A DNA stretch of 48,382 bases from Candidatus Rokuibacteriota bacterium. Lineage in GTDB: Bacteria > Methylomirabilota > Methylomirabilia > Rokubacteriales > CSP1-6. Within the stretch, counting starts at the first letter, position 1, and each line of letters begins with the position of its first letter. This document shows positions 8,155 to 30,040 of the stretch, piece by piece. The notes under the pieces are model-generated. The model searched no databases, was not told the DNA's origin, and was given only the letters and a program-made list of their open reading frames with translations. Position numbers and translations under genes: made by a program. The stretch spans positions 1 to 48,382 of the forward strand of contig JACQWC010000110.1 of assembly GCA_016209635.1 (NCBI GenBank), read 5' to 3'.

Positions 8155-10797
8155 TCACTCGCCGCTCTGCTGCAGGAGCTTCGCGACGAGGCCGGTCCAG
8201 CCCGTCTGGTGGCTGGCGCCGATCCCCGCGCCGTTGTCGCCGTGGAAGTACTCGTAGAACGGGATCAGGTCCCGCCAGTAGGGGTCGGTCTGGAACTTCT
8301 CGGCGCCCCCGTAGACGGGCCGGCGGCCGGCGCCGTCGCGCAGGAAGATCCGTGTCAGCCGTCGCGAGAGGTCGGCGCTCACCGCCCAGAGGTTCATCAG
8401 CCGGTCCGATCCCGCCGGGCACGGGACCTTCATGCTGTCGCCGTAGAAGTGGTGGAACTTCTGGAGCGACTCGATGAGCAGGTAGTTCACCGGGAACCAG
8501 ACGGGCCCGCGCCAGTTGGAGTTCCCGCCGAAGAGGCCGCTCGAGGACTCGGCGGGCTCGTAGTCGACCCGGTGCTCCGTGCCATTGCTCGACAGCGCGT
8601 AGGGATGCGCGCGGTGGAACTGGGAGATCCCGCGGATCCCGTACGGCGAGAGGAACTCCGTCTCGTCGAGCATGAAGCGGAGCACGCGTGGCAGCTGGTC
8701 GCGGGTGGCGATCGAGAGGAGGCGTCGCATCCCGCCCTTCGGCTTCTCGATCATCGCGACGTGCTCGCGGAACTCCGGCCGGTTGTCGATGAACCACTGC
8801 ATGCGCCGCTTGAACCCGGGCAGCAAGTCGACCAGCTCGGGCTCGAGCGTCTCGACCGCGAAGAGCGGGATCAGCCCGACCATCGAGCGCACCTTGAGCC
8901 GGCAGCGCGCGTCGTTCGGCAGGTGGAGCACGTCGTAGTAGAAGCCGTCCTCGTCGTCCCAGAGGTTGATGCCCTCGCCGCCGAGGTCGTGCATCGCGTG
9001 CGCGATGTACACGAAGTGCTCGAAGAACTTGCTGGCCAGGTCCTCGTACGCCTGGTTGTGGCGCGCCAGCTCCAGCGCGATGGCCAGCATGTTGAGACAG
9101 TACATGCCCATCCAGGAGGTCCCGTCCGACTGCTCGATGTAGCCGCCGGTCGGCAGGGGCGCCGAGCGGTCGAAGACACCGATGTTGTCGAGCCCGAGGA
9201 AGCCGCCCTGGAAGACGTTCTTGCCCTCCGTATCCTTCCGGTTCACCCACCAGGTGAAGTTCAGCAGGAGCTTCTGGAAGACGCGCTCCAGGAACTCGTG
9301 ATCCGCCTTGCCCCGGATGCGCTTCTCGATCTTGTAGACGCGCAGCGCGGCCCAGGCGTGGACCGGCGGGTTCACGTCCCCGAAGGCCCACTCGTAGGCC
9401 GGGAGCTGGCCGTTCGGATGCATGTACCACTCGCGGAGGAACAGGATGAGCTGCGCTTTCGCGAAGTCCGGATCGACGAGGGCGAGCGGGATCGTGTGGA
9501 AGGCGAGGTCCCAGGCGGCGAACCAGGGATACTCCCACTTGTCGGGCATCGAGATGACGTCCTCGTTGTAGAGGTGCGTCCACTCGCGGTTCCGCCCGCG
9601 GAGACGGTCGGCGGGAGGCGGCGGCTGCGTCCCGTCCCCCTGGAGCCACCGCTTGACGTCGTAGTGGTAGAACTGCTTGCTCCAGAGGAGCCCGGCCAGC
9701 GCCTGGCGCATCACCCGCTTGCCGTCGTCCGACAGCGTCTTCGGCGTGACCGTCGCGTAGAACTCGTCCGCCTCCTGGACGCGCTGGGCGAGGATCCGGT
9801 GGAACTCCTTGCCGAACGGGTCGCCGGCCGGCCGGGTGTCCGTGAGCCGGAGGTGCAGGGTGACCGATTCCCCCGCGCCCAGCGTGAGCCGGCGATGCGC
9901 GGCCACCTTCGTTCCCACCCGGGCCGGGTTGACCGCCTCCGATCGGCCGTGGACGACGCAGTCGTGGATGCCGTCCTTCACGAAGGGCGTCGGGTTCGGC
10001 ACGCCGTAGAGCCGCAGCGTGTTGGTCTCGTTCTCCGTGAACAGGAGGTCGGGCGACCCCTCGCAGACGAGCCAGCGGCGCCCGAGCGACGCCTCCTCCG
10101 CCGCCACCACCGAGTAGCTGCCGACCGAGCCGGAGGCGGCGAGCCGCGGCCGCGCCCGTCCCTGGTCCCTGGCCCAGGTGTTTCGGAACCAGAGCGTGGG
10201 CAGGAGGTGCAGCTCGGCCGGCTCGGGACCCCGGTTCGTCGCGGTGATGAGGATCAGGATGTCGTCCGTCGTCGCCTTGGCGTACTCGACGAGCACCTCG
10301 AAGTACCGGTCCCCGTCGAAGACCCCCGTGTCGATCAGCTCGTACTCGGGCGCGTGCCGGCCCCGGCGGCGATTCTCCTCGAGCAGCTCGGCGTAGGGAA
10401 AGGCGGCCTGCGGGTACTTGTAGAGGTACCGCATGTAGGAGTGGGTGGGGGTCGAGTCGAGGTAGAAGTAGTACTCCTTCACGTCCTCGCCGTGGTTCCC
10501 CTCGCTCCCGGTGAGGCCGAAGGGCCGCTCCTTCAGGATCGGATCGCGCCCGTTCCACAGGGCCAGGGCGAAGCAGAGTCGCTGGTGGTTGTCGGAGATC
10601 CCTCCGAGGCCGTCCTCCCCCCACCGGTACGCCCTGGACCTCGCATGGTCGTGCGGGAAGTAGTCCCACGCGGTGCCCCCGGGGCTGTAGTCCTCGCGGA
10701 CGGTGCCCCACTGCCGCTCCGAGAGATAGGGCCCCCAGCGCCGCCAGTGGGCGGCGCGCTCGCGCGCCTCGCTGAGCCTCAGCTCCTCGTGTGTCAT
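8155..10797 (-). CDS. Glucosidase, GH63/MGH1-like
   Basis: An 880-residue protein of the bacterial glucosidase group related to GH63 mannosyl-oligosaccharide glucosidases and MGH1-like hydrolases. The N-terminal hallmark is [20 protein letters not shown], followed by the segment around [20 protein letters not shown]. The C-terminal half is an (alpha/alpha)6 barrel with conserved [39 protein letters not shown] and [16 protein letters not shown]. No signal peptide is visible, so it is probably cytoplasmic and acts on alpha-glucosides or glycogen-derived oligosaccharides. It is the first gene after a 101-base gap with two hairpins and is followed by gnd, fbaB and glk. The exact substrate is not determinable. 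Confidence 0.88.
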
Positions 10798-10826
10798 CGC
10801 CTGTCGATCCCCCCTCCCCTAGGACA

Positions 10827-10876
10827 CCGCCCGTTCCGAGGGCGGTTCGGCGCCTGGCCCGGGGGACATCGCCCCC
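10827..10876. terminator. Pair of GC-rich hairpins between glycosyltransferase and glucosidase genes
   Basis: The 101-base gap 10798-10898 contains two perfect hairpins: CCGCCC-GTTCCGA-GGGCGG at 10827-10845 and GGGGG-ACATCG-CCCCC at 10861-10876. They lie downstream of the glycosyltransferase (minus strand) and upstream of the glucosidase start. They could terminate or attenuate transcription, or protect the mRNA. There is no T-run, so the role is uncertain. Confidence 0.35.
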
Positions 10877-10898
10877 GAGTGTCGCGCGTTCGCCCGGA

Positions 10899-11672
10899 TT
10901 AGGGAAGGGCCGAGCGCCGCCCCGACGGCCACGGGCTCCCCGGCCACCGGTCTGCGGGTCCGCGCCAGCGCTCGGCGTAACGCTGCGTGTCGAGCCCGAG
11001 CGTGTAGAGCGCGAGCAGCCAGACGATGAAGAAGAACGTGCGCCAGGGGCCACGGGCGAGGAACCGCCGACCGGAGGTGAGGAGCGGGACGCGGATCAGC
11101 ACCGTCCGTCCCCGTCGTCGGAGCCGCTGGCTCAGGTCGAGGTCCTCGAGGATCGCGAGATCACGGTACCCGCCGAGCTCCCGGAAGACCGCGGCGCGGA
11201 CGAAGAGGCCCTGATCGCCGTAGTAGTTCCGGGTGAGCCGGTACCGGATCCGGTTGATCCAGGTGATCGCGCGGAGGCTCCAGCCCGGCTCGGCGAAGAG
11301 GTGCTCGAAGGCGCCGCCCACGACCCGCGCATCCCGGAGCGCCTCCTCGATGCGCCGCACGGCGTCGACGGGCGGGAGCGAGTCGGCGTGGACGAAGAAG
11401 AACGTCGCGCCCGTCGCGGCCGCGGCGCCCGCGTTCATGAGGGCGGCGCGGGTGGCGCCGGGGGGCCAGAGGAGGCGGGCGCGGCCAGCCACGGCGCGCT
11501 CGGTGCCCTCCCGGTCTCCCGAGGCCGCGACGATCAGCTCGACGGCCTCCCCTCCCGGGAGCCCGCGCAGGCGGTCGAGCGTGAGCCCGAGGGCCGCGGC
11601 GTCGTTCCGCGCGGGAACGATGACCGACAGCGGAGCCGTCAGCGCGCGCTCACTCGGGCTCGCAGACCTCAT
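10899..11672 (-). CDS. Family 2 glycosyltransferase, TIGR04283-like
   Basis: A 257-residue GT-A fold glycosyltransferase. After a short N-terminus it shows LSVIVPARNDAAALGLTLD and then the nucleotide-sugar region with the acidic triplet context FFFVHADSLPP. The later block NYYGDQGLFVRAAVFRELGG, followed by LEDLDLSQRLRRRGR, is typical of TIGR04283, the family first named rSAM/selenodomain-associated transferase 2 and later linked to arsenosugar synthesis. A hydrophobic segment near the C-terminus (TFFFIVWLLALYTLG) may anchor it to the membrane. The ATG at 11672 overlaps the end of the selenium-containing reductase gene by 23 bases. The alternative CTG at about 11642 would remove the overlap. 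The acceptor is unknown. Confidence 0.8.
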   Translation of the reverse strand: MRSASPSERALTAPLSVIVPARNDAAALGLTLDRLRGLPGGEAVELIVAASGDREGTERAVAGRARLLWPPGATRAALMNAGAAAATGATFFFVHADSLPPVDAVRRIEEALRDARVVGGAFEHLFAEPGWSLRAITWINRIRYRLTRNYYGDQGLFVRAAVFRELGGYRDLAILEDLDLSQRLRRRGRTVLIRVPLLTSGRRFLARGPWRTFFFIVWLLALYTLGLDTQRYAERWRGPADRWPGSPWPSGRRSALP

Positions 11673-18460: not shown

Positions 18461-19765
18461 TCAGGGTGTGCGGCCGCCCCCGCTCGCGGCGCTCCCGGCC
18501 CGCGTCACCCAGTAGTGATCGGGGCGGCGCGCGACGCGCTCCGCCAGGAGCCGCTCGGCCCGCTCGACGTCGCCGGCCCGGAAGCACGCCTCGAGGAGCG
18601 TGTCGTGGAACACGTCGCGCTGGGCACGGCTGCCGCCGAGCTCCTTGACACGGGCGCGCAGCGGCGCGATCCGCTGGATCGTCCGGCGGTAATCGCGCTG
18701 GGCAAAGGCGTGGATCCCCTCGACCAGCGGCACCAGCACCTCGCCGGTGAGGCCCGTCCGGTCCTTCGGGCTCCGCTCGCGGAGCATCCCGAGCTGCTTG
18801 TCCGCCGTGGCCCAGTCCCCGCCGGCGGCGAGGGCCATCGCGAGGTGGGCGGCGTGGAAGAGGAGGCCCTGGCGATCGAGCCGCTCGGCGGCGATCGCCA
18901 TGAACGGGCGCCAGCGGTCGGTCACGTCCCGGCCGTAGAGCTCGAGCCGCCAGAGAAGCGAGATCGAGTCGTGCAGGTCCCCCGCGACCGACGAGGGCGC
19001 GCGCTCGAAGACGGTGCGGCCGAGGTGGGACGCGCGCTCGTAGTCCCCGCGCCCCAGATGCATCAGGATCAGGTGCCAGAGGAGGTGGTTCCTGAACCAG
19101 CCGAGGTTCGTGCACGGATGGATCGCGGGCGGAAGCCGCGTGATGCCCGTCTCGAACGCCGCCATCTCGTAGAGGGCGTGGGCGAGCGCGTGGATGGCCC
19201 AGGCGTCGAGCGGATTCCTGACGATCGCCGCCTGGGCGATCCTCACCGCCTCGTCGCAGCGGCCCGCCTGCTCGAGCGCGAAGGCGTGGAGACCCAGCAT
19301 GAAGGAGCTGCCCGGATGGTGCCGGCTCAGCGCGCGGGAGAGGTCGAGCATCTCGGGGAACTTGCCCTGCCAGAACCAGATGAAGTAGAGCCGCTGGAAG
19401 ACGACGAGGTCGCGGGGGAAGTCGGCGAGGTGCCGCGTCATCGCCGGCTCGGCGTCGCGCGTCTTGCCCTCGACGAGGAGCGCCAGCGCCTCGACGTGGC
19501 GGCGCTCGCGCTCGGTCTGCGCGGCGACGGCGGCGCGCGCCACGCTCGCCGCCTCGCGCGCCTCGGCGAAGCGCTCGTCGAGGAAGAGACAGACGGCGGC
19601 GCCCGCGTGAGCCAGCGCGAGCCCCGGGTCCGCCGCGGCGGCGGCGCGGAAGCGATCGAGGGCGCGCGCGTCCCAGCCGAGGAGGCCTTCGACCGCCTGG
19701 TCGTACCCCGCGAGGGCGTCCGGCGACGCCGTGGTGACCGGCAGGCCGTAGGCGTCGAGCGGCAT
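18461..19765 (-). CDS. TPR protein, TTC38-like
   Basis: A 434-residue soluble protein made of tetratricopeptide-like helical pairs and resembling the tetratricopeptide repeat protein 38 family. The start MPLDAYGLPVTTAS and the central NPLDAWAIHALAHALYEMA and WFRNHLLWHLILMHLGRGDY are family hallmarks. There is no signal peptide or catalytic motif; it is probably a scaffold or binding protein of unknown partner. It is packed between the YheT-like hydrolase (10-base gap) and the GT87-like gene (2-base gap), so it belongs to the same transcript. No function can be assigned beyond the family. Confidence 0.75.
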   Translation of the reverse strand: MPLDAYGLPVTTASPDALAGYDQAVEGLLGWDARALDRFRAAAAADPGLALAHAGAAVCLFLDERFAEAREAASVARAAVAAQTERERRHVEALALLVEGKTRDAEPAMTRHLADFPRDLVVFQRLYFIWFWQGKFPEMLDLSRALSRHHPGSSFMLGLHAFALEQAGRCDEAVRIAQAAIVRNPLDAWAIHALAHALYEMAAFETGITRLPPAIHPCTNLGWFRNHLLWHLILMHLGRGDYERASHLGRTVFERAPSSVAGDLHDSISLLWRLELYGRDVTDRWRPFMAIAAERLDRQGLLFHAAHLAMALAAGGDWATADKQLGMLRERSPKDRTGLTGEVLVPLVEGIHAFAQRDYRRTIQRIAPLRARVKELGGSRAQRDVFHDTLLEACFRAGDVERAERLLAERVARRPDHYWVTRAGSAASGGGRTP

Positions 19766-19775
19766 CGCCGGAATG

Positions 19776-20750
19776 CTAGCAGACCCCGCCCGGGTCGGCG
19801 AGAAGCGCGCGGAGAAACTCGAGGGCGCGCCGCTCGGCCCACGACCTCGAGCGCCACGGCCAGCGCCCTTCGAGGAACCCCGCGTGGCCGCCGTGGGCCG
19901 GGAACTCTGCCCGCACGCCGGAGGGCAGCCGGCCAGGGTCCGGCAGCGTCTCCGGCGGCACGAACGGATCGTCGAGCGCGTTCAGGAGGAGCGTGGGCCG
20001 CCGGATCCGGGCGACGTAGGGACCGCTGCTCGCCCGCCTCCAGTAATCGGCCTCGTCGGCGAAGCCGTGGAGCGGGGCGGTGACAGCGCGGTCGTACTCG
20101 GCGAAGGTCCGCGCGCGCGCCGCCGCGCGCAGGTCGACGAACGCGCCGTGACTCCGCGCCTTGGCGCGCACCTTCCGCCGGAGCGTCCGCATGAAGTTCG
20201 CGGTGTAGAGCGCGCGGCGGAGGCCACGGTCGAGCGCCCGTGCGCAGGCGGCGAGGTCGAACGGCGTGGAGATCGCCACGGCGCCCCGGAGCTGCCCGGG
20301 CACGTCGAGGTGGCGCTCGCCGAGCCACTTGAGCAGCACGTTGCCGCCGAGCGAGACCCCGACCGCGCCGAGCCGCAGATCGGGCTCGCGCCCCGCGAGG
20401 AGCTGGACGATCGCGTCGAGGTCGCCGGTGTCCCCCGAGTGGTAGAAGCGCGGCAGCCGGTTCAGCTCGCCGCTGCACGAGCGGAAGTTCAGGACGACCC
20501 CGCGCCAGCCGTCGGCCCGCGCCTCGCGGAGGAGACCCCTGACGTAGTGGGAGCCCGACGAGCCCTCGAGCCCGTGGAGGACCAGGAGGAGGGGCGCGCC
20601 CGTCGGGCCGGGGGCCCAGTCGAGGTCGACGAAGTCGCCGTCGCCCGTCGGCACGCGCTCGCGCCGGAGGGCCACGGGGTGCCGGCGAACGAGCGGGCCC
20701 CAGATCGTCTGGAGGTGCCCGTTCCTGCCCCACCAGGGGGGCGCGAACAC
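19776..20750 (-). CDS. Alpha/beta hydrolase, YheT-like
   Basis: A 324-residue alpha/beta hydrolase of the YheT/ABHD1-3 group. The family N-terminus is plain (GRNGHLQTIWG), followed by the oxyanion segment LLVLHGLEGSSGSHY. The nucleophile is the serine of GVSLGGN, the acid is in LNALDDPFVPPE and the histidine in HGGHAGFLEG. The start is a GTG at 20750, which gives the expected first residues. Family members are esterases or lipases of poorly known substrate. It lies 15 bases after the small UGSC selenoprotein gene, so it is co-transcribed with that cluster; whether it takes part in the same pathway is unknown. Confidence 0.86.
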   Translation of the reverse strand: MFAPPWWGRNGHLQTIWGPLVRRHPVALRRERVPTGDGDFVDLDWAPGPTGAPLLLVLHGLEGSSGSHYVRGLLREARADGWRGVVLNFRSCSGELNRLPRFYHSGDTGDLDAIVQLLAGREPDLRLGAVGVSLGGNVLLKWLGERHLDVPGQLRGAVAISTPFDLAACARALDRGLRRALYTANFMRTLRRKVRAKARSHGAFVDLRAAARARTFAEYDRAVTAPLHGFADEADYWRRASSGPYVARIRRPTLLLNALDDPFVPPETLPDPGRLPSGVRAEFPAHGGHAGFLEGRWPWRSRSWAERRALEFLRALLADPGGVC

Positions 20751-20765: not shown

Positions 20766-21296
20766 CTAGTCCTGCCCCTGGAGGATCAGCTTCACGACCT
20801 CCGGCGCGATCTCACGGGCGCGCTGATCCAGCTCCGCCTCGGTGAGGTTCGCGATCGGGTGCGCCGCGAGGAGAAACTTGTAGTACGGCAGGCCCCACTG
20901 CTCCGCCATGGCGCGGCCGGTCACCTCGAAGACGTCCGTCACGATGGACGCGGAGGGCACGCCCGCCTTCTCCAGCAGGATTCCGTCGAGCACACTGCCC
21001 GACGAGCAGGACCCTCAGTCTCCGATTCCCGCGACCATGACGTCCGAGGTCGCGCGCACCTCCTCGATGATCTCCCGGTGCGCCGGCACGCTCGAGTTGT
21101 GCTTCCGCCACATCCGCGTCTCGCGGGCGCCGTACTCGGCGACGAGGAGGTCGCCGATCTTCTGAAGCAGCCGGTCAGAGTTGAACTTCGTGTTCTCGAT
21201 CAGCGCGACCCGCTTGCCTTCGAGCGAGGCCGGGCGAGGAACCCACGCGACGGTCCGCGTGGTCGCCTCCGTGGTGGGATCGAGCAGCTCGGTCAT
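20766..21296 (-). CDS. UGSC-motif selenoprotein, in-frame UGA read as selenocysteine at residue 94
   Basis: A 176-residue protein with a UGA codon at 21017-21015, inside the motif GIGD-U-GSCSSGS, which defines the UGSC (seleno)protein family. The N-terminal part has an ALIENTKFNSDRLLQKIGDL strand-helix, then RMWRKHNSSVPAHREII and ATSDVMVAG leading into the UGSC turn. The C-terminal part continues PSASIVTDVFEVTGRAMAEQ and ends at 20766. The frame is continuous on both sides, and a stable hairpin follows the UGA. UxxC is a thioredoxin-like redox pattern; the biochemical role of the family is not established. The ATG at 21296 overlaps the stop of the partner gene (ATGA), so the two proteins are made together and probably form a complex. 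Confidence 0.9.
20984..21017 (-). promoter_or_regulatory. Predicted bacterial SECIS element of the small UGSC gene
   Basis: After the UGA (21017-21015) the transcript can form CGTCGGGC-AGTGT-GCTCGACG: eight pairs including one G-U, at 21004-20997 and 20991-20984. The five-base loop lies 19-23 bases after the UGA. The position and size match the hairpin in the second UGSC gene exactly, although the stem bases differ, which suggests that the structure is maintained. Confidence 0.75.
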
Positions 21297-22443: not shown

Positions 22444-24024
22444 TCAGCTCTCGACGGGCACGGTGACCGAGCGGGTCGAGCCGAAGGTCGGGACGAAGGC
22501 GGAGTGCTTGCCGGGGCCGCCGGCGACGACCACCATCACGTCGTCGGGGCTCGCGGCCAGGGCGATCCGCTCGTCGGGCGGCCGGTCGCGGAAGCGCGCC
22601 GGGTCGATCGTCGCGAAGCGCGCCAGGTTCTCCGCGCCGAAGGCCGCGGCCGGCACGCGCGCCCGCTCCCAGAAGGCCCGCCGCAGATCGTCCTTCGACC
22701 AGCCGGACGCCGCGATGGTCTGCGCGTGCTCGGGGCCGAGCAGGAGGAGGGGCTCGCCCCCGAGGTAGACGTTGTTGTTGCCGGGCGTCGCCGCGGTTCC
22801 GGCCAGCGCCGCGAGGAGCCCCTCGGCGGTGGTCGAGCCGTGATCGTTCACGTTGTGCGGCGCCTCCGACGCGCACACGGTCACGCAGCTCACGCCCGCC
22901 GCGAATCCCCGGTCCACGTGGAGGGGCGGCCACGGCGACGCCTCCTCGTTCTCGCCGAGGCAGTAGGTGAACTTCCCGGGATAGCCGAGGGTCGCGCGGT
23001 CGAGGTGCCCGGCGCGCGCCCCGCCCACGTTCTGGAGGGTGAGCCTCACGCTCCGGCCGATCACCGCGTTGGCGCGGTACCCCGGTCCGAGCGCGCCGGC
23101 CCCCGCGCCGATCCCGAGCCGTGCCCGGATGGGCCCGTTCACGACGACGAGGGGCGTGCAGGGATGCGTGGTCGTCTGCACGGCCTCGAGGTTGAAGCGC
23201 GGCTCGGCCAGGGCCCGGAGCGCGGCCAGGATCACGGGCAGGTGCTCGGGACCAGCGCCCGCGAGCGCCGCGTTGACCACGATCACCTCGAGCGTCGCGC
23301 GCCCGAACCGCGGCGCCAGGGTCGCGACGACCTCGCCGGGCAGCCCGGGAGTCCCCGCGAGGAGCCGGACGACGCGCTCCGGCGTGGGCGGGAGGACGGG
23401 AAGCCCGTCGCCCCACCCCTCGGCCATCGCGAACGCCTGGAACTCGTCGAGGTCGTCGGGGGCGGCGAGCGTCGCCGCGGAGGCCGGCCGGGGAGAGGGC
23501 GGGGGCGCGGGATCACTCGTCAGCGCCCGGATCACCGCGTCGGCGACCGACTCAGCCTTGGCGCGCACCACGGCGGGGTCGAGGCCGCCGATCGGGTGGG
23601 GCACCGTGACGCGCGCCAGGTGCGGCACCCCGAGCGCCGCGGCCGCCTCGTCGGCGAGCGACCGGAAGGCGTCGGTGCCGAGGACGACCACCGGCACGCC
23701 CCGCCCCTCGAGCGCCGCCGCGTCGTGGATACTCCACGACGTGCAGGACCCTCAGTCGGCCGAGCCGGTCAGGACCACGTCCGACGCGCGCGCCACCTCG
23801 TCGATCACGGACGCGGGGCGCGAGGAGCCCGGCTTCCGCCACCACCGGACGGCGCCGGCGCCCGCGCGCTCGGCCAGGATTTCGGCCGTCCGACCGAGGA
23901 GCGCGTCGGCGTTGGGCTTGGAATTATCGAGTATCCCGATCGTGAGCCCGCGGAGGCTCGACCGCCGTCGCGCGAGCGGCCTGACCTCTCGGGGCGCCAG
24001 GCCGAGGGGGCTCAGGACGTTCAT
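22444..24024 (-). CDS. Fused UGSC selenoprotein and UGSC-associated domain, in-frame UGA at residue 91
   Basis: A 526-residue protein in one frame, interrupted only by the UGA at 23754-23752. Residues 1 to about 145 form the UGSC domain (GLTIGILDNSKPNADALLG, RWWRKPGSSRPASVI, SDVVLTGSAD-U-GSCTSWS). After a proline-rich linker near residues 170-180 comes a domain paralogous to the downstream gene (GWGDGLPVLPPTPERV, VVVNGPIRARLG, GPGYRANAVIGRSVRL, DRATLGYPGK, SPWPPLHVDRGF, DDVMVVVAGGPGKHSAF). The ATG at 24024 overlaps the acetyltransferase stop. A nine-base perfect hairpin follows the UGA. The fusion mirrors the separate two-gene version next door, so this is probably a second enzyme of the same type acting on a related substrate. 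Confidence 0.9.
23721..23754 (-). promoter_or_regulatory. Predicted bacterial SECIS element of the fused UGSC gene
   Basis: After the UGA (23754-23752) the transcript forms CGTCGTGGA-GTA-TCCACGACG, a perfect nine-base stem (23741-23733 and 23729-23721). The loop is three bases, or five bases (AGTAU in RNA) if the top pair opens. The loop is centred 21 bases after the UGA, as in the other UGSC gene. The hairpin lies wholly in coding sequence, as expected for bacterial SECIS elements. Confidence 0.8.
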
Positions 24025-24557
24025 GGCTTCCACTCCTCCCGGAGGATTCCCATCGTGATCGCGTCCCAGTAGCGTCCCTCCTGGTACCGGTCCTGACGCA
24101 GCACCCCCTCGCGCTTGAAGCCCACCTTCTCGTACACGTGGATCGCGCGCGGGTTGTTCTCGTAGACGTGGAGCCACACCCGGTTCAAGTTCAGGGTCCC
24201 GAAGGCGTAGCCCACCAGGAGGCCCGTCGCCTCGGTGCCGTAGCCCTTGTTCCACTCGTTCTTGTCGCCGATGACGATGCCGAAGGCGGCATGGTGGTTC
24301 CGGAAGTCGATCCGGTGGAGGCCGGTCGCCCCGATCAGCCGGTCGGTCTGCCGGGCGACGATGCCCAGCGCGAGGTCGTGCTCGCTCTTGACGAGGGACT
24401 GGATGAACTCCTCCTCGGCCTCGAGCGTCATGGGCCGGTAGCGGTTCAGCGTCCGGTTGACCTCGGCGTCGTTGATCCACGGGACGAAGAGCGCGGCGTC
24501 CTCGCGCTCGAGGGGACGCAGGTAGATCTTCGTCCCGATCAGAAATGGGTTCCGCAT
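24021..24557 (-). CDS. GNAT acetyltransferase, RimJ/RimL-like
   Basis: A 178-residue N-acetyltransferase of the type 3 GNAT group. The start GTKIYLRPLEREDAALFVPW is typical of RimJ/RimL/SpeG-like proteins. The acetyl-CoA-binding region appears as GIVIGDKNEWNKGYGTEATG, and the C-terminal block NRVWLHVYENNPRAIHVYEK is also characteristic. The acceptor could be a ribosomal protein, an amino acid or a small amine. Its stop overlaps the start of the fused UGSC gene (ATGA), so it is co-translated with the selenoprotein cluster. A direct role in that pathway is possible but unproven. Confidence 0.86.
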   Translation of the reverse strand: MRNPFLIGTKIYLRPLEREDAALFVPWINDAEVNRTLNRYRPMTLEAEEEFIQSLVKSEHDLALGIVARQTDRLIGATGLHRIDFRNHHAAFGIVIGDKNEWNKGYGTEATGLLVGYAFGTLNLNRVWLHVYENNPRAIHVYEKVGFKREGVLRQDRYQEGRYWDAITMGILREEWKP

Positions 24558-25769: not shown

Positions 25770-26795
25770 TCAGCGGGCGACCCGCTCCATCATGACCGAC
25801 TCGATCTCCCGGATGAGGCTCTCGGCGGTGGCGACGCGCCCGAGCAGCCGCTGGAAGTTCTCGCAGGTCGCGTCGTGCAGCCGCTGGCTCGCGGCGGCGC
25901 AGCCGTCTTCGACGAGCACGCAGCGGTACCCGCGGTCGGCGGCGTCCCGCGCGGTCCCCTCGACGCACGAATTGGTCGACACGCCCACGAGCGCGAGCTG
26001 CTCCACGCCCCACGCGCGGAGCAGCCGCTCGAAGCCCGACGAGTGGAACGCGCTCATGGTGGTCTTGTTGATCACGGGCTCGCCGGGCACCGGCGCCAGG
26101 GCCTCGAGGATCTCGTGCTCCCGCCGCCCCCGCGTGTTCCCGACCGCGCGGGCCAGACCCCGCATGTGCGGCAGGAGGTCGGAGAAGTCCGGCAGCTCGG
26201 AGCCGACCGTCAGGTAGACACGGCGGAGGCCGTGGGCGCGGAAGACGTCGAGGAGCCGTCGGATCGTCGGGACGATGATCCGCTCGATCCGGTCGAAGCG
26301 GTACGCGCCAAGCGTCGTCTGGCCGCGCTCCCGGAGGAACCGCCCGAGCCCCTCGTCGCGGGAGGCGCTCGCGTACTGCATGTCCACCACGACGAGGGCG
26401 AGACGCTCCGGGTCGAGGGCGAAGGCCGGATTGAACGCGGCCGCGTAGTCCGCCTGAAGCGCGGGGCCCCCGTCCTCCCAGGGCAGCTCGATCCCGAGGA
26501 GCGGCGCGTGCTGCTGGGCCCCGTAGGTGTCCCGCTCGCCCACGCTCCCCTGCGCCGTCTGGCGCGCGACCGTCAGCTTCAGCGCGAGGGCCGGATCGTA
26601 GAAGACCACTTCGTAGACCTGGTCCGGCGGGATCCGGTAGAGCGCCGCGACGCGCTCGCGGGTGAAGTATCCGGTGCGCTTAACCGCGTCGTACGTCGCG
26701 CGGTCAGGGAAGATCAGGTCGAGCGTGATCTCGAACGGGCCGGCGTTCTTCGACCGGATCACGCGGGCCAGCTCGGCGAGCCTCCGCGTGGCCAC
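25770..26795 (-). CDS. Fusion of a DUF4387 domain with an isochorismatase-like cysteine hydrolase
   Basis: A 341-residue protein with two domains in one frame. Residues 1 to about 110 are a DUF4387 domain (RRLAELARVIRSKNAGPFEI, DPALALKLTVARQ, DTYGAQQHAPLLG). The rest is an isochorismatase-fold hydrolase with its triad: aspartate in LALVVVDMQYA, lysine in VINKTTMSAF and the nucleophile Cys277 in GVSTNSCVEGTARDA. The start is a GTG at 26795, overlapping nothing and two bases after the AtuA stop. DUF4387 proteins usually accompany AtuA as separate small proteins; here the partner is joined to an amide or ureide hydrolase. The whole probably acts in one pathway with AtuA and the dihydropyrimidinase. 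Confidence 0.83.
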   Translation of the reverse strand: MATRRLAELARVIRSKNAGPFEITLDLIFPDRATYDAVKRTGYFTRERVAALYRIPPDQVYEVVFYDPALALKLTVARQTAQGSVGERDTYGAQQHAPLLGIELPWEDGGPALQADYAAAFNPAFALDPERLALVVVDMQYASASRDEGLGRFLRERGQTTLGAYRFDRIERIIVPTIRRLLDVFRAHGLRRVYLTVGSELPDFSDLLPHMRGLARAVGNTRGRREHEILEALAPVPGEPVINKTTMSAFHSSGFERLLRAWGVEQLALVGVSTNSCVEGTARDAADRGYRCVLVEDGCAAASQRLHDATCENFQRLLGRVATAESLIREIESVMMERVAR

Positions 26796-26797
26796 GC

Positions 26798-28159
26798 TCA
26801 GTACTCGACGAGCTCGACGGGGAAGGGCGCCGCGGGGTCCTCGACGGCGAGCAAGTGATAGACGTTGAAGCGGTAGACGGGTCCGAGCCTGACGTCGCTC
26901 GGGGCGAATGGAAAGGCGAGATTGCCCGCCGTCGCCTTGCGTCCGGGGTAGGCGTAGTGGATCAGCGTGGCGCGGACGAAGGCGCAGATCGCGTCCGCCA
27001 GCTCCTGCGTCGCCGCCACCACCTCGATCACGAGGCCGACCTCGTGGGGCCCGGCCCCGGCCCGGAGCGGCTCGCTCGCCCCCATCACGCCGTCGATGCC
27101 GTAGTGGTGGAAGAGGATCCGGTAGTCGCCCCGCGGCACCCGGTCGAAGTAGTCGCGGGTGAGGTCGACCACCGCCTCCTCCGAAGCGTGGAGCTCCGCG
27201 AGCATCAGGGGGTCGCGGATTCCGGCGAGGACGACCGTCCGGTACGCGCAGAGCTCCGCGCCCTCGAGTTTCACCGTGTAGGGCGTCGACGGGTGGAAGG
27301 CGCTCCCCCGAACCTCGACCGCGCGATCTCCGATCTGCCGGAAGGTGCAGCCGGAGAGATCCGTGAGGCCGCCGGGCCCCGGCAGGAGGTAGGGGTGCGA
27401 CTTCTCGTAGAGCGTGTGGGCCGCGACCGAGGTCTCCGTGCAGCGGCGCGCCGGATTCAGCGGCTCGACGACGAAGCCGTCGGAGCGGAGGACGCCGAGC
27501 ATCGCGTCGCCCGGCGAGCCGGGGTCGGCTGCGAGCGCGCCGCACTCGAGGATCTTCCCGAGGTGCCACGCGGGCCCCTCGGCGAATCCCTTCCACAGCG
27601 GCCAGGCCGCGAAGCACGCCGGGTCGTACGCCCGGCCGGCGATGATCACCTGGGCCCCTGTCTCGAGCGCCCGGATCAGCGGCTCCGCCCCCATCTGGGC
27701 GACGATGCGGGTGGCACTGTCGATCGCCTTGTCGGTGAGCGACGGCACCCCCCGGAGCGGCGTGATCCGCCCGGCGGCCAGCTCGGATTTCAGGAATTCC
27801 TTGTCCAGCTCGGCGTGAACGTAGGCGACGCGGAGGCGCCGCCCGTCCTCTCGGATCAGCTCCTCGAGGATCTCGCGGGTCCACGCGAGGTGGACCTCCG
27901 CACCCGAGCCGCCGGCGGAGCCGACGATGACCGGCACGCCGAGGTCGAGACCGCCGCGGAGCATCGCACCGAGGTCCTTCTTCGTCGCGGCGCGGCTCAC
28001 GATGCCGACGCCCGCCCCGAGCTTGTGCGGCCCGCCGTCGGTCGAGCCGGCGTCGGCCGCGATCACGTGGGGCCGCCGGAGCAGGCCCGCCTCGAACGAC
28101 GCCAGCGGGAAGCCGTAGCCGAGCATGCCCAGCGGCGCCAGGATCCGACACTCGTCCAT
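26798..28159 (-). CDS. AtuA family (acyclic terpene utilisation-like) protein
   Basis: A 453-residue protein of the AtuA family. The N-terminus shows RILAPLGMLGYGFP and the block AADAGSTDGGPHKLG, followed by GSAGGSGAEVHL. Later segments include GRAYDPACFAAWPLWKGF, KILECGALAA and SAFHPSTPYTVKLEGA. AtuA is named after Pseudomonas genes for citronellol and geraniol breakdown, but many members lie in other catabolic clusters and their reaction is not settled. It is packed between a dihydropyrimidinase (8-base gap) and the DUF4387 fusion (2-base gap). The pairing with DUF4387 is a recurrent association known from other genomes. The substrate is unknown. Confidence 0.83.
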   Translation of the reverse strand: MDECRILAPLGMLGYGFPLASFEAGLLRRPHVIAADAGSTDGGPHKLGAGVGIVSRAATKKDLGAMLRGGLDLGVPVIVGSAGGSGAEVHLAWTREILEELIREDGRRLRVAYVHAELDKEFLKSELAAGRITPLRGVPSLTDKAIDSATRIVAQMGAEPLIRALETGAQVIIAGRAYDPACFAAWPLWKGFAEGPAWHLGKILECGALAADPGSPGDAMLGVLRSDGFVVEPLNPARRCTETSVAAHTLYEKSHPYLLPGPGGLTDLSGCTFRQIGDRAVEVRGSAFHPSTPYTVKLEGAELCAYRTVVLAGIRDPLMLAELHASEEAVVDLTRDYFDRVPRGDYRILFHHYGIDGVMGASEPLRAGAGPHEVGLVIEVVAATQELADAICAFVRATLIHYAYPGRKATAGNLAFPFAPSDVRLGPVYRFNVYHLLAVEDPAAPFPVELVEY

Positions 28160-28167
28160 GGCCGGCC

Positions 28168-29598
28168 TCAGCACGCGGGACGGCGGAGGATCACGGGATC
28201 GATCTTGCGCTGGAGCAGGCGGCCGTCGCTCGGGCTCCCGACGAGCGCGCCGCCATCGGCGATCACCCGGCCGCGCAGGATCGTCGTCACGGGCCACCCG
28301 GACACGCTCCACCCCTCCCACGGGCTGTAGTCGGTCACGTGGAAGTCCTCCCGCGTGAGGGTCTTCTTGATCCCGGGGTCGATCAGCGCCAGGTCGGCGT
28401 CGCTCCCCGGGGCGATGACGCCCTTACGGGGGTAGAGGCCGAAGATCCGCGCGGCGTTCGTGGCGGTGATCTCGGCGAAGCGCTCGAGCGACATCCCGCG
28501 CTTCACCACGCCCTCGCTGAACGCGATCCCCATCCGGGCCTCGGCGCCGACGTTCCCACCGGTCACGTCCTCGATGGTCTTGCCGCGGAGCTTGACGGCG
28601 AGGGTCGTCGGGTACTCGTCGGTCGCGAGGGTCGAGAGATCGTCCCCCACGAGCCCGCCCCAGAGCGCCTGCTGGTCCTCGGGCAGCTTCAGCGACGGGT
28701 ACGTGTGCGAGCAGAAGCCGCGCGGCGTCTTGTAGTAGTCGGCGTTGAAGCAGGTGTACTGGTGGAGCGTCTCGCCGTACACGGGCAGCCCGAGCGAGCG
28801 GGCCTCCGCGACCGCCTCGACCCCCTCGCGGGCGGAGGTGTGGACGAAGTAGACGGCCGCGCCCGTCGCCCGAGCGAGCGCGATCGTCCGCCGGAACGCG
28901 AGCAGCTCGGAGAGCTTCGTGTGGACGAGGTGCAGGTTCGTGCCGTCCATCCGCCCCTCGGCGCGGAACTTCTCGTACATGAACTGGACGAGGTCCTCGT
29001 CCTCGCCGTGGACCGCGATCAGGCCGCCGTGGGCGGCGATCTTCTCCATCGCGTGCTGGATCCGGCCGAAGTCGAGGCGGTTCCCGGCGCGCTTGGGATG
29101 CGGGGGCAGCACGTTGGTCGTGAAGACCTTGAAGCTCGGGAACCCCTCCTGGATCGCCTCGGGGATCTGCTCGAAGACGCGGAGCGCCAGCGGCCCGCAG
29201 AGCGTCACGTGGAAGGCGTAGTCGACGTACGAGTTGCCCTTCCACCGGGCGCGCCGCTGCTCGATCACCTCGGGAATCTCCATCCCCGGCCGCACGTAGC
29301 AGAAGTCGATGTGCGTCGTGGTCCCGCCGAAGGCCATCCCTCGGGTGTCCTCCTCCGGCCCCATCGTGAGCCCGGGCTCGTCGGGATGGCTCATGATCGC
29401 GTGCGCCAGATGCGTGTGCGGATCGATCCCGCCGGGGACGACGATCTTGCCCGACGCGTCGAGGACGCGGGCCGAGCCGGTCGCCAGCGTTCCCGGCTGA
29501 CCGAGGACGGCGATGCGCTCGCCCTCGATACCCACGTCCCACGCCCCGACACCCTGGGGCGTGACGACCTGCCCATGACGGATCACGAGGTCGAGCAC
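28168..29598 (-). CDS. Dihydropyrimidinase/hydantoinase-like cyclic amidohydrolase
   Basis: A 476-residue metal-dependent amidohydrolase. All binuclear-site ligands are present: H61 and H63 (DPHTHLAH), the carboxylated lysine K157 (SFKVFTTN), H197 (VHGEDED), H253 (FVHTSAREG) and an aspartate in LATDEYPTT. This enzyme class opens cyclic amides such as dihydropyrimidines, hydantoins or allantoin-like rings. The GTG at 29598 gives the normal start LDLVIRHGQVVTPQG; anything longer is unlike the family. A promoter -10 lies only a few bases before it, so the mRNA may be leaderless. It is the first gene of the minus-strand cluster that runs through AtuA, DUF4387, MFS and the UGSC genes. Confidence 0.9.
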   Translation of the reverse strand: MLDLVIRHGQVVTPQGVGAWDVGIEGERIAVLGQPGTLATGSARVLDASGKIVVPGGIDPHTHLAHAIMSHPDEPGLTMGPEEDTRGMAFGGTTTHIDFCYVRPGMEIPEVIEQRRARWKGNSYVDYAFHVTLCGPLALRVFEQIPEAIQEGFPSFKVFTTNVLPPHPKRAGNRLDFGRIQHAMEKIAAHGGLIAVHGEDEDLVQFMYEKFRAEGRMDGTNLHLVHTKLSELLAFRRTIALARATGAAVYFVHTSAREGVEAVAEARSLGLPVYGETLHQYTCFNADYYKTPRGFCSHTYPSLKLPEDQQALWGGLVGDDLSTLATDEYPTTLAVKLRGKTIEDVTGGNVGAEARMGIAFSEGVVKRGMSLERFAEITATNAARIFGLYPRKGVIAPGSDADLALIDPGIKKTLTREDFHVTDYSPWEGWSVSGWPVTTILRGRVIADGGALVGSPSDGRLLQRKIDPVILRRPAC

Positions 29599-30040
29599 GG
29601 GCTGAGCGTAGCCCACGCCGCGTGAGCGGTCAACGACGAAGGCGGGACGGAGCGAGGGCGCATCCGGTTCTGTGACAGCTTGCCACGTCCCGATGCCCGA
29701 GGACCTCCTGGCCTGGGCAGCCGGCCGATCGGATGTTCGCGTCGTGAGACGCCCCGCAGCGTTTGCGGGTCGATGCGCCAAGATACGCTGCACACCCTTG
29801 CGGCCTATCCAGGCTTGGCCGCGTTGTCTTGGTCGATCGCAAGATGTTGAAACGATGGCGCCAGATGCGAACAAGACACGTCGCGTCGCTATCTGAATAG
29901 GCCGACCAGCCCTGCAGCGTTTGCCAGAATACGCAGATCAGCCTATCCTGCTGCCGAATTCTAGTTCGCCGCATAGGCGGACGGGCCACGGTAATCGCCA
30001 TCGAGTTCGGTTATCCTGAAGATGCTGCGTGAGGGCGCCG
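29599..30040. other. Gene-free, lower-GC stretch at the left edge of the island
   Basis: I find no convincing gene, tRNA or mobile-element end here. The first 35 bases hold the promoter described above. Beyond about 29640 the base composition drops, and short AT-richer patches appear that are absent elsewhere. An 11-base direct repeat, GCAGCGTTTGC, occurs at 29756-29766 and 29914-29924, 158 bases apart. The stretch looks like degraded sequence at the border of the acquired region and must contain the promoter of the antitoxin gene, which I could not place confidently. Confidence 0.5.
29605..29633 (-). promoter_or_regulatory. Promoter of the dihydropyrimidinase-UGSC cluster, probably leaderless
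   Basis: On the minus strand TTGACC (29633-29628) and TACGCT (29610-29605) are exactly 17 bases apart. Initiation six to seven bases after the -10 would fall on or next to the GTG start at 29598. No ribosome-binding site precedes that codon. Confidence 0.6.

Follow-up and report, generated by a model that had tools for sequence, protein, structure and literature searches.

Fusion of a UGSC selenoprotein with its partner domain in Rokubacteria: a candidate single-chain selenocysteine-dependent reductase

INTRODUCTION

What kind of protein results when a UGSC selenoprotein is joined in one chain to a second domain, and what does it mean that the same two parts are also encoded, as separate genes, immediately alongside? 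The question is raised by a locus from a soil bacterium of the Rokubacteria lineage (Candidatus Rokuibacteriota bacterium, assembly GCA_016209635.1, contig JACQWC010000110.1), lying within a stretch of 48,382 nucleotides that is referred to here as the window.

The 2008 GOS survey by Zhang and Gladyshev (PMC2398784) reports UGSC among the commonest selenoprotein families of that ocean survey, suggests a thioredoxin-like fold for it, and describes one fusion, UGSC/Unknown_1, in which a UGSC domain is joined to a conserved domain, its function uncharacterised. A recent review likewise places UGSC among the functionally uncharacterised selenoproteins (PMC13188914).

RESULTS

The fused gene and its neighbours

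Reading along the minus strand of the window—the strand being a detail absent from the original prediction, which was right in its coordinates—we see a single frame of 526 codons that runs from an ATG (24024-24022, preceded on its 5' side by GGGAGGAG) to a TGA stop (22446-22444; Table 1). That the frame specifies a UGSC selenoprotein and its partner in one fused chain, as originally proposed, is borne out by the frame itself, by the match of its N-terminal domain to the UGSC family (165.7 bits against PF24696, cut-off 25; 134.9 bits against NF041046, cut-off 125) and by a second domain that is 47% identical (E 1.3e-76) to the adjoining free-standing partner protein. The UGSC motif, an in-frame UGA and a downstream SECIS-like hairpin are all present; whereas members of this family are usually described as stand-alone proteins of uncharacterised function, here the domain is fused to a partner.

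Fused and split versions do indeed sit side by side, the split pair occupying 22384-20766 within the same minus-strand run of genes, and the GNAT acetyltransferase gene is likely to belong to the same operon as the fused gene. Further upstream (25770-29874, minus strand) are isochorismatase, DUF4387, AtuA and amidohydrolase domains, with an MFS gene also in the operon; a set that suggests catabolism of an organic substrate.

Table 1. Features of the fused gene, the split pair and adjacent genes (window coordinates)
Feature	Position	Strand	Remarks
GNAT acetyltransferase, directly upstream	24021..24557	minus	Pfam 1.3e-27; ATGA stop/start overlap with fused gene
Fused UGSC and partner gene	22444..24024	minus	526 aa including Sec91, then TGA stop; translated with TGA=U
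UGSC domain PF24696, residues 3-169	23518..24018	minus	Pfam 1.4e-48; AlphaFold2 secondary structure; Foldseek
UGA codon 91, read as selenocysteine, D-U-G-S-C	23752..23754	minus	Translation; U in 167/174 complete UGSC domains
Bacterial SECIS-like hairpin, 9 bp, GTA loop	23721..23741	minus	Loop starts 22 nt after U of UGA
Partner domain, residues about 190-524	22453..23457	minus	Without Pfam or NCBIfam family; Ala257 replaces conserved Cys
Split pair, free-standing partner protein, 363 aa	21293..22384	minus	
Split pair, free-standing UGSC selenoprotein, 176 aa	20766..21296	minus	ATGA overlap with partner gene
UGA (Sec94) of split UGSC gene	21015..21017	minus	Own hairpin follows
Alpha/beta hydrolase, downstream of split pair	19776..20750	minus	Pfam 3.5e-16
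TPR-repeat protein	18461..19765	minus	Related ORF in 14/19 fused-plus-split clusters compared

The in-frame UGA encodes selenocysteine

Both the UGA at residue 91 (23754-23752) and the perfect nine-base hairpin expected after it (23741-23721) are found, the arms CGTCGTGGA (23741-23733) and TCCACGACG (23729-23721) enclosing a GTA loop (23732-23730). As a comparison with Rfam gave no match for the SECIS, the element was assessed by alignment. Of 161 distinct UGA contexts compared, most place the start of the loop 22 nt past the U, 159 have its G and 153 have AGT as the loop codon, a codon used for only 4 of 75 serines in a count over five genes of the window; and the pairs of the stem covary (C-G to G-C, for example, with G-T/T-A/A-T at neighbouring positions). 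Complete UGSC domains (n = 174) carry Sec in 167 cases, Cys in five and another residue in two, whilst contig 168 of the same assembly encodes tRNA-Sec, selA (593.9 bits) and selB (379.8 bits) together. Given this predominance of Sec, the conserved and covarying hairpin, and the presence of tRNA-Sec, selA and selB in the genome, the UGA is a real selenocysteine codon.

Under the standard code UGA would terminate the frame, and the assembly is a MAG with 7.9% contamination; points that speak for a sequencing error or nonsense mutation, with the downstream domain forming a separate gene. We hold this to be very improbable: the UGA with its hairpin is seen again in the 161 contexts, other genomes of the family have orthologous fused frames—17 fetched loci of that bacterial family showing the fused gene next to a split pair—and the Sec machinery is present in the bin. 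The sequencing error that might have undone the original prediction is, in practice, excluded.

On a Sporomusa termitida plasmid (L138:9290-11044), a fused UGSC-partner homologue has GDMGTS at the Sec site, neither U nor Cys, and its redox function may, to judge from the sequence, be lost or altered. An Arthrobacter plasmid (L136:11021-11836) encodes a Cys-form UGSC protein whose C-terminal extension looks NifU-like by eye.

UGSC and its partner are nearly always found together

The genome of the window holds five UGSC domains and five partners, all of them paired, as two fusions and three split pairs. Among 60 relatives, 45 have both and 15 neither, such that presence and absence agree in 60 of 60, and copy numbers of the two are correlated (r=0.94). 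Fetched loci yielded 186 UGSC domains, 26 fused to a partner, 152 beside one (together 178/186) and eight for which no partner was found; a count in which some of the partnerless cases lie near contig ends and overlapping loci may have entered a few domains twice. The distance matrices of the two families are also correlated (Spearman 0.72), with none of 300 permutations reaching as high a value. The partnership of UGSC and partner is thus nearly obligate. A scan of viral contigs for relatives found none, and at five Poribacteria loci (L165, L166, L169, L171, L172) a partner gene is seen with no UGSC within the fetched flanks.

Fusion had been put forward as 'direct' evidence of physical association. 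The association itself stands, through co-occurrence, adjacency, fusion in both orders and correlated divergence; fusion as 'direct' evidence of contact does not. Mutual information between the domains (163 pairs, about 94 effective sequences, shared ancestry uncorrected) places T95 and W97, just after the Sec, among the top couplings, a result to which we attach no weight.

The UGSC domain resembles the Sec-bearing end of GrdB and PrdB

AlphaFold2 models the fused chain with a pLDDT of 96.2 and a pTM of 0.94 (plasmid-record rows having been left out of the alignment used for modelling); since the pTM is this high, the two domains are predicted to be placed rigidly with respect to one another. 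Within the UGSC domain, the model shows strands and helices in alternation, with Sec91 at the start of the helix that follows the third strand. Rossmann/flavodoxin-like folds are the best of the 50 Foldseek matches listed, and no thioredoxin occurs among those 50. The thioredoxin-like fold suggested in 2008, and with it a place among the thioredoxin-fold selenoproteins, thus gives way to a beta-alpha, Rossmann-like model.

Profile comparisons point in a particular direction. When NCBIfam models were run against 18 UGSC proteins, GrdB matched six, PrdB three and GrdF three, all weakly. We then see, with hhalign, that a UGSC profile aligns to one for GrdB (built from GrdB-like proteins of the phylum read through their own UGA) at 95% and E 1.9e-8, with the Sec residues in register, and that the match persists at 70% and E 4e-5 once the U-G-x-C motif is masked; the best of 40 column-shuffled controls reached 3.6% (E 0.012) and a GrdE control 4.1% (E 0.01), all E-values being those of a single pairwise comparison rather than calibrated against a database. 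Because the match survives masking and the controls fall far lower, we conclude that UGSC and the C-terminal, Sec-bearing part of GrdB/PrdB descend from a common ancestor, the alignment covering a homologous C-terminal Sec domain with U-x-x-C.

GrdB and PrdB (PF07355, TIGR01917, TIGR04483) are the Sec subunits of glycine, sarcosine, betaine and D-proline reductase. Likeness to UGSC lies in this C-terminal part, which aligns through U-G-x-C and the E-x-x-G-I-P that follows, and in being encoded beside a partner subunit; the differences are of size (about 170 aa for UGSC versus about 430 aa) and of partner, that of UGSC not being the pyruvoyl GrdE/PrdA. The fused protein scores 13.6 bits against TIGR01917 (GrdB), far from the cut-off of 602.2, and PDB sequence searches with it and with both profiles returned nothing credible. 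On profile and model evidence, UGSC is best described as a predicted Rossmann-type module, related by homology to the Sec-bearing end of GrdB/PrdB though not a member of that family.

U-x-x-C is a widespread redox motif, and trxA/trxB flank some of the plasmid copies, as would suit a generic thioredoxin-type thiol/peroxide redox selenoprotein with the partner as its client or regulator. We think this unlikely: the model has repeated beta-alpha units and no thioredoxin among its 50 listed Foldseek matches, profile similarity leads to GrdB/PrdB, and a general redox protein has no need of a one-to-one partner across many phyla. Thioredoxin reductase was also considered as a general neighbour and set aside, with one labelled match in 160 metagenome-derived loci.

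Several genomes of the Rokubacteria family (L223-L241, L253-L262) carry full GrdB-like genes with an in-frame UGA beside PF09338 (GrdE-like) genes, a Sec pair that runs parallel to UGSC and partner within the window's lineage. The genome from which the window comes also gives three short matches (contigs C20, C194 and C72) to PF07355 in its C-terminal part, possibly PrdB-like short selenoproteins.

The partner domain has no recognised family

The partner region matches no family in Pfam or NCBIfam. Descent from GrdE/PrdA was ruled out (0.1% against the GrdE profile), as was, by comparison with the GrdB profile, the idea that the partner is a part of GrdB; PF09338, the pyruvoyl GrdE/PrdA family, has no match in the genome of the window. 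Modelled as a free-standing protein (pLDDT 93.6, pTM 0.91), the partner finds its best PDB matches by Foldseek in class I fumarase and cyanuric acid hydrolase, at a TM of 0.30 or less over its length. Judged from this model, the fold may be new, or may merely be absent from the structure library.

Fused and split copies are old paralogues

Besides the window's bacterial family, other bacterial phyla and an Acidovorax plasmid also carry fusions. Mapped onto a 69-row tree of the partner, the fused state requires six changes, at least three of them on well-supported branches; the database search for further fusions that the original prediction had called for thus shows them recurring on the tree, and in both orders. 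One Chloroflexi contig has both, partner-UGSC and UGSC-partner (L192:5857-7611 and 9544-11244). Genomes of the window's bacterial family have as many as 12 UGSC copies.

The fused copy of the window falls within a fully supported clade of fused proteins from its own bacterial family, and its split neighbour elsewhere, among Burkholderiales relatives. Because they belong to different clades, the tree identifies the two as old paralogues from separate subfamilies, and the fused gene as a recent duplicate of its neighbour is not supported.

The subfamilies also differ at one position. A cysteine in an MAGC motif of the partner is present in 76 of 77 split partners of the phylum, chosen without use of that pattern, and in 37 of 37 split rows of an alignment whose genome_contigs loci were chosen by it. 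Alanine takes its place in 18 of the phylum's 19 fused copies, the window's included (Ala257), and these keep Sec and its resolving cysteine. With the cysteine lost in this way and the subfamilies old and separate, the comparison supports the earlier suggestion of two distinct activities for the fused and split copies; the fused gene and the split pair probably act on different substrates.

The same position bears on whether the partner is itself the enzyme, a lyase or hydrolase for example, and UGSC serves only to keep its cysteine in the right redox state. The partner's many invariant polar residues, that near-invariant cysteine, and the faint resemblance of its fold, by Foldseek, to class I fumarase and cyanuric acid hydrolase would all fit. 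We nevertheless doubt it, given that fused copies lacking the cysteine retain Sec and the resolving Cys, and that the fold similarity lies below a TM of 0.31.

DISCUSSION

Taking together what was computed—the fused reading frame, its Sec coding, the near-obligate pairing, GrdB homology and a fold other than that of thioredoxin—we lean towards the fused chain being a single-chain Sec-dependent reductase, in which UGSC is the GrdB-like component and a previously unrecognised partner replaces the pyruvoyl subunit. The wider proposition, that UGSC and partner form a widespread and hitherto unrecognised two-component class of Sec reductases, a minimal cousin of GrdB/PrdB, of which the fused copy represents one specialised subfamily, is more tentative, and we put it at a little short of an even chance.

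Glycine and proline reductase break a C-N bond with the help of a dithiol, through the joint action of a Sec selenolate and a subunit that bears a carbonyl (PMC10298544). By analogy, the C-terminal partner of the fused chain would bind and activate the substrate, the job done by GrdE/PrdA in the known reductases; the selenolate of Sec91, at its helix start after the third strand, would attack the activated carbon or heteroatom, the bond being cleaved reductively; an Se-S bond would then form with Cys94, the putative resolving residue of U-x-x-C, and a dithiol donor such as thioredoxin would reset the site. That the partner binds the substrate is inferred, as are the chemistry, the identity of the electron donor and that of the substrate; for the partner the argument is by analogy only, because comparisons reveal no relation to either GrdE or GrdB and its fold finds no convincing match. 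Among eight plasmid loci read, trxB flanks the pair in four: Arthrobacter (with trxA as well), Variovorax, Roseovarius and Paracoccus. Plasmid pFER4 of Paracoccus ferrooxidans (L141:1-16143) carries a Sec-coding UGSC-partner pair together with selA, selB, trxB, a cysteine desulfurase and TusA/DsrE-like genes.

A UGSC fusion as such was already on record, UGSC/Unknown_1 (PMC2398784) probably being of the same kind; for that protein, the accessible part of the paper does not describe a fold, a kinship with GrdB or a split pair alongside. A search of literature outside subscription found no paper linking UGSC to GrdB, and both the GrdB/PrdB homology and the Rossmann-type fold appear to be new. 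Together with a near-obligate partner, the link to GrdB/PrdB recasts the orphan UGSC family as a two-part enzyme open to testing, for which the fused copy offers a single chain for expression and crystallisation.
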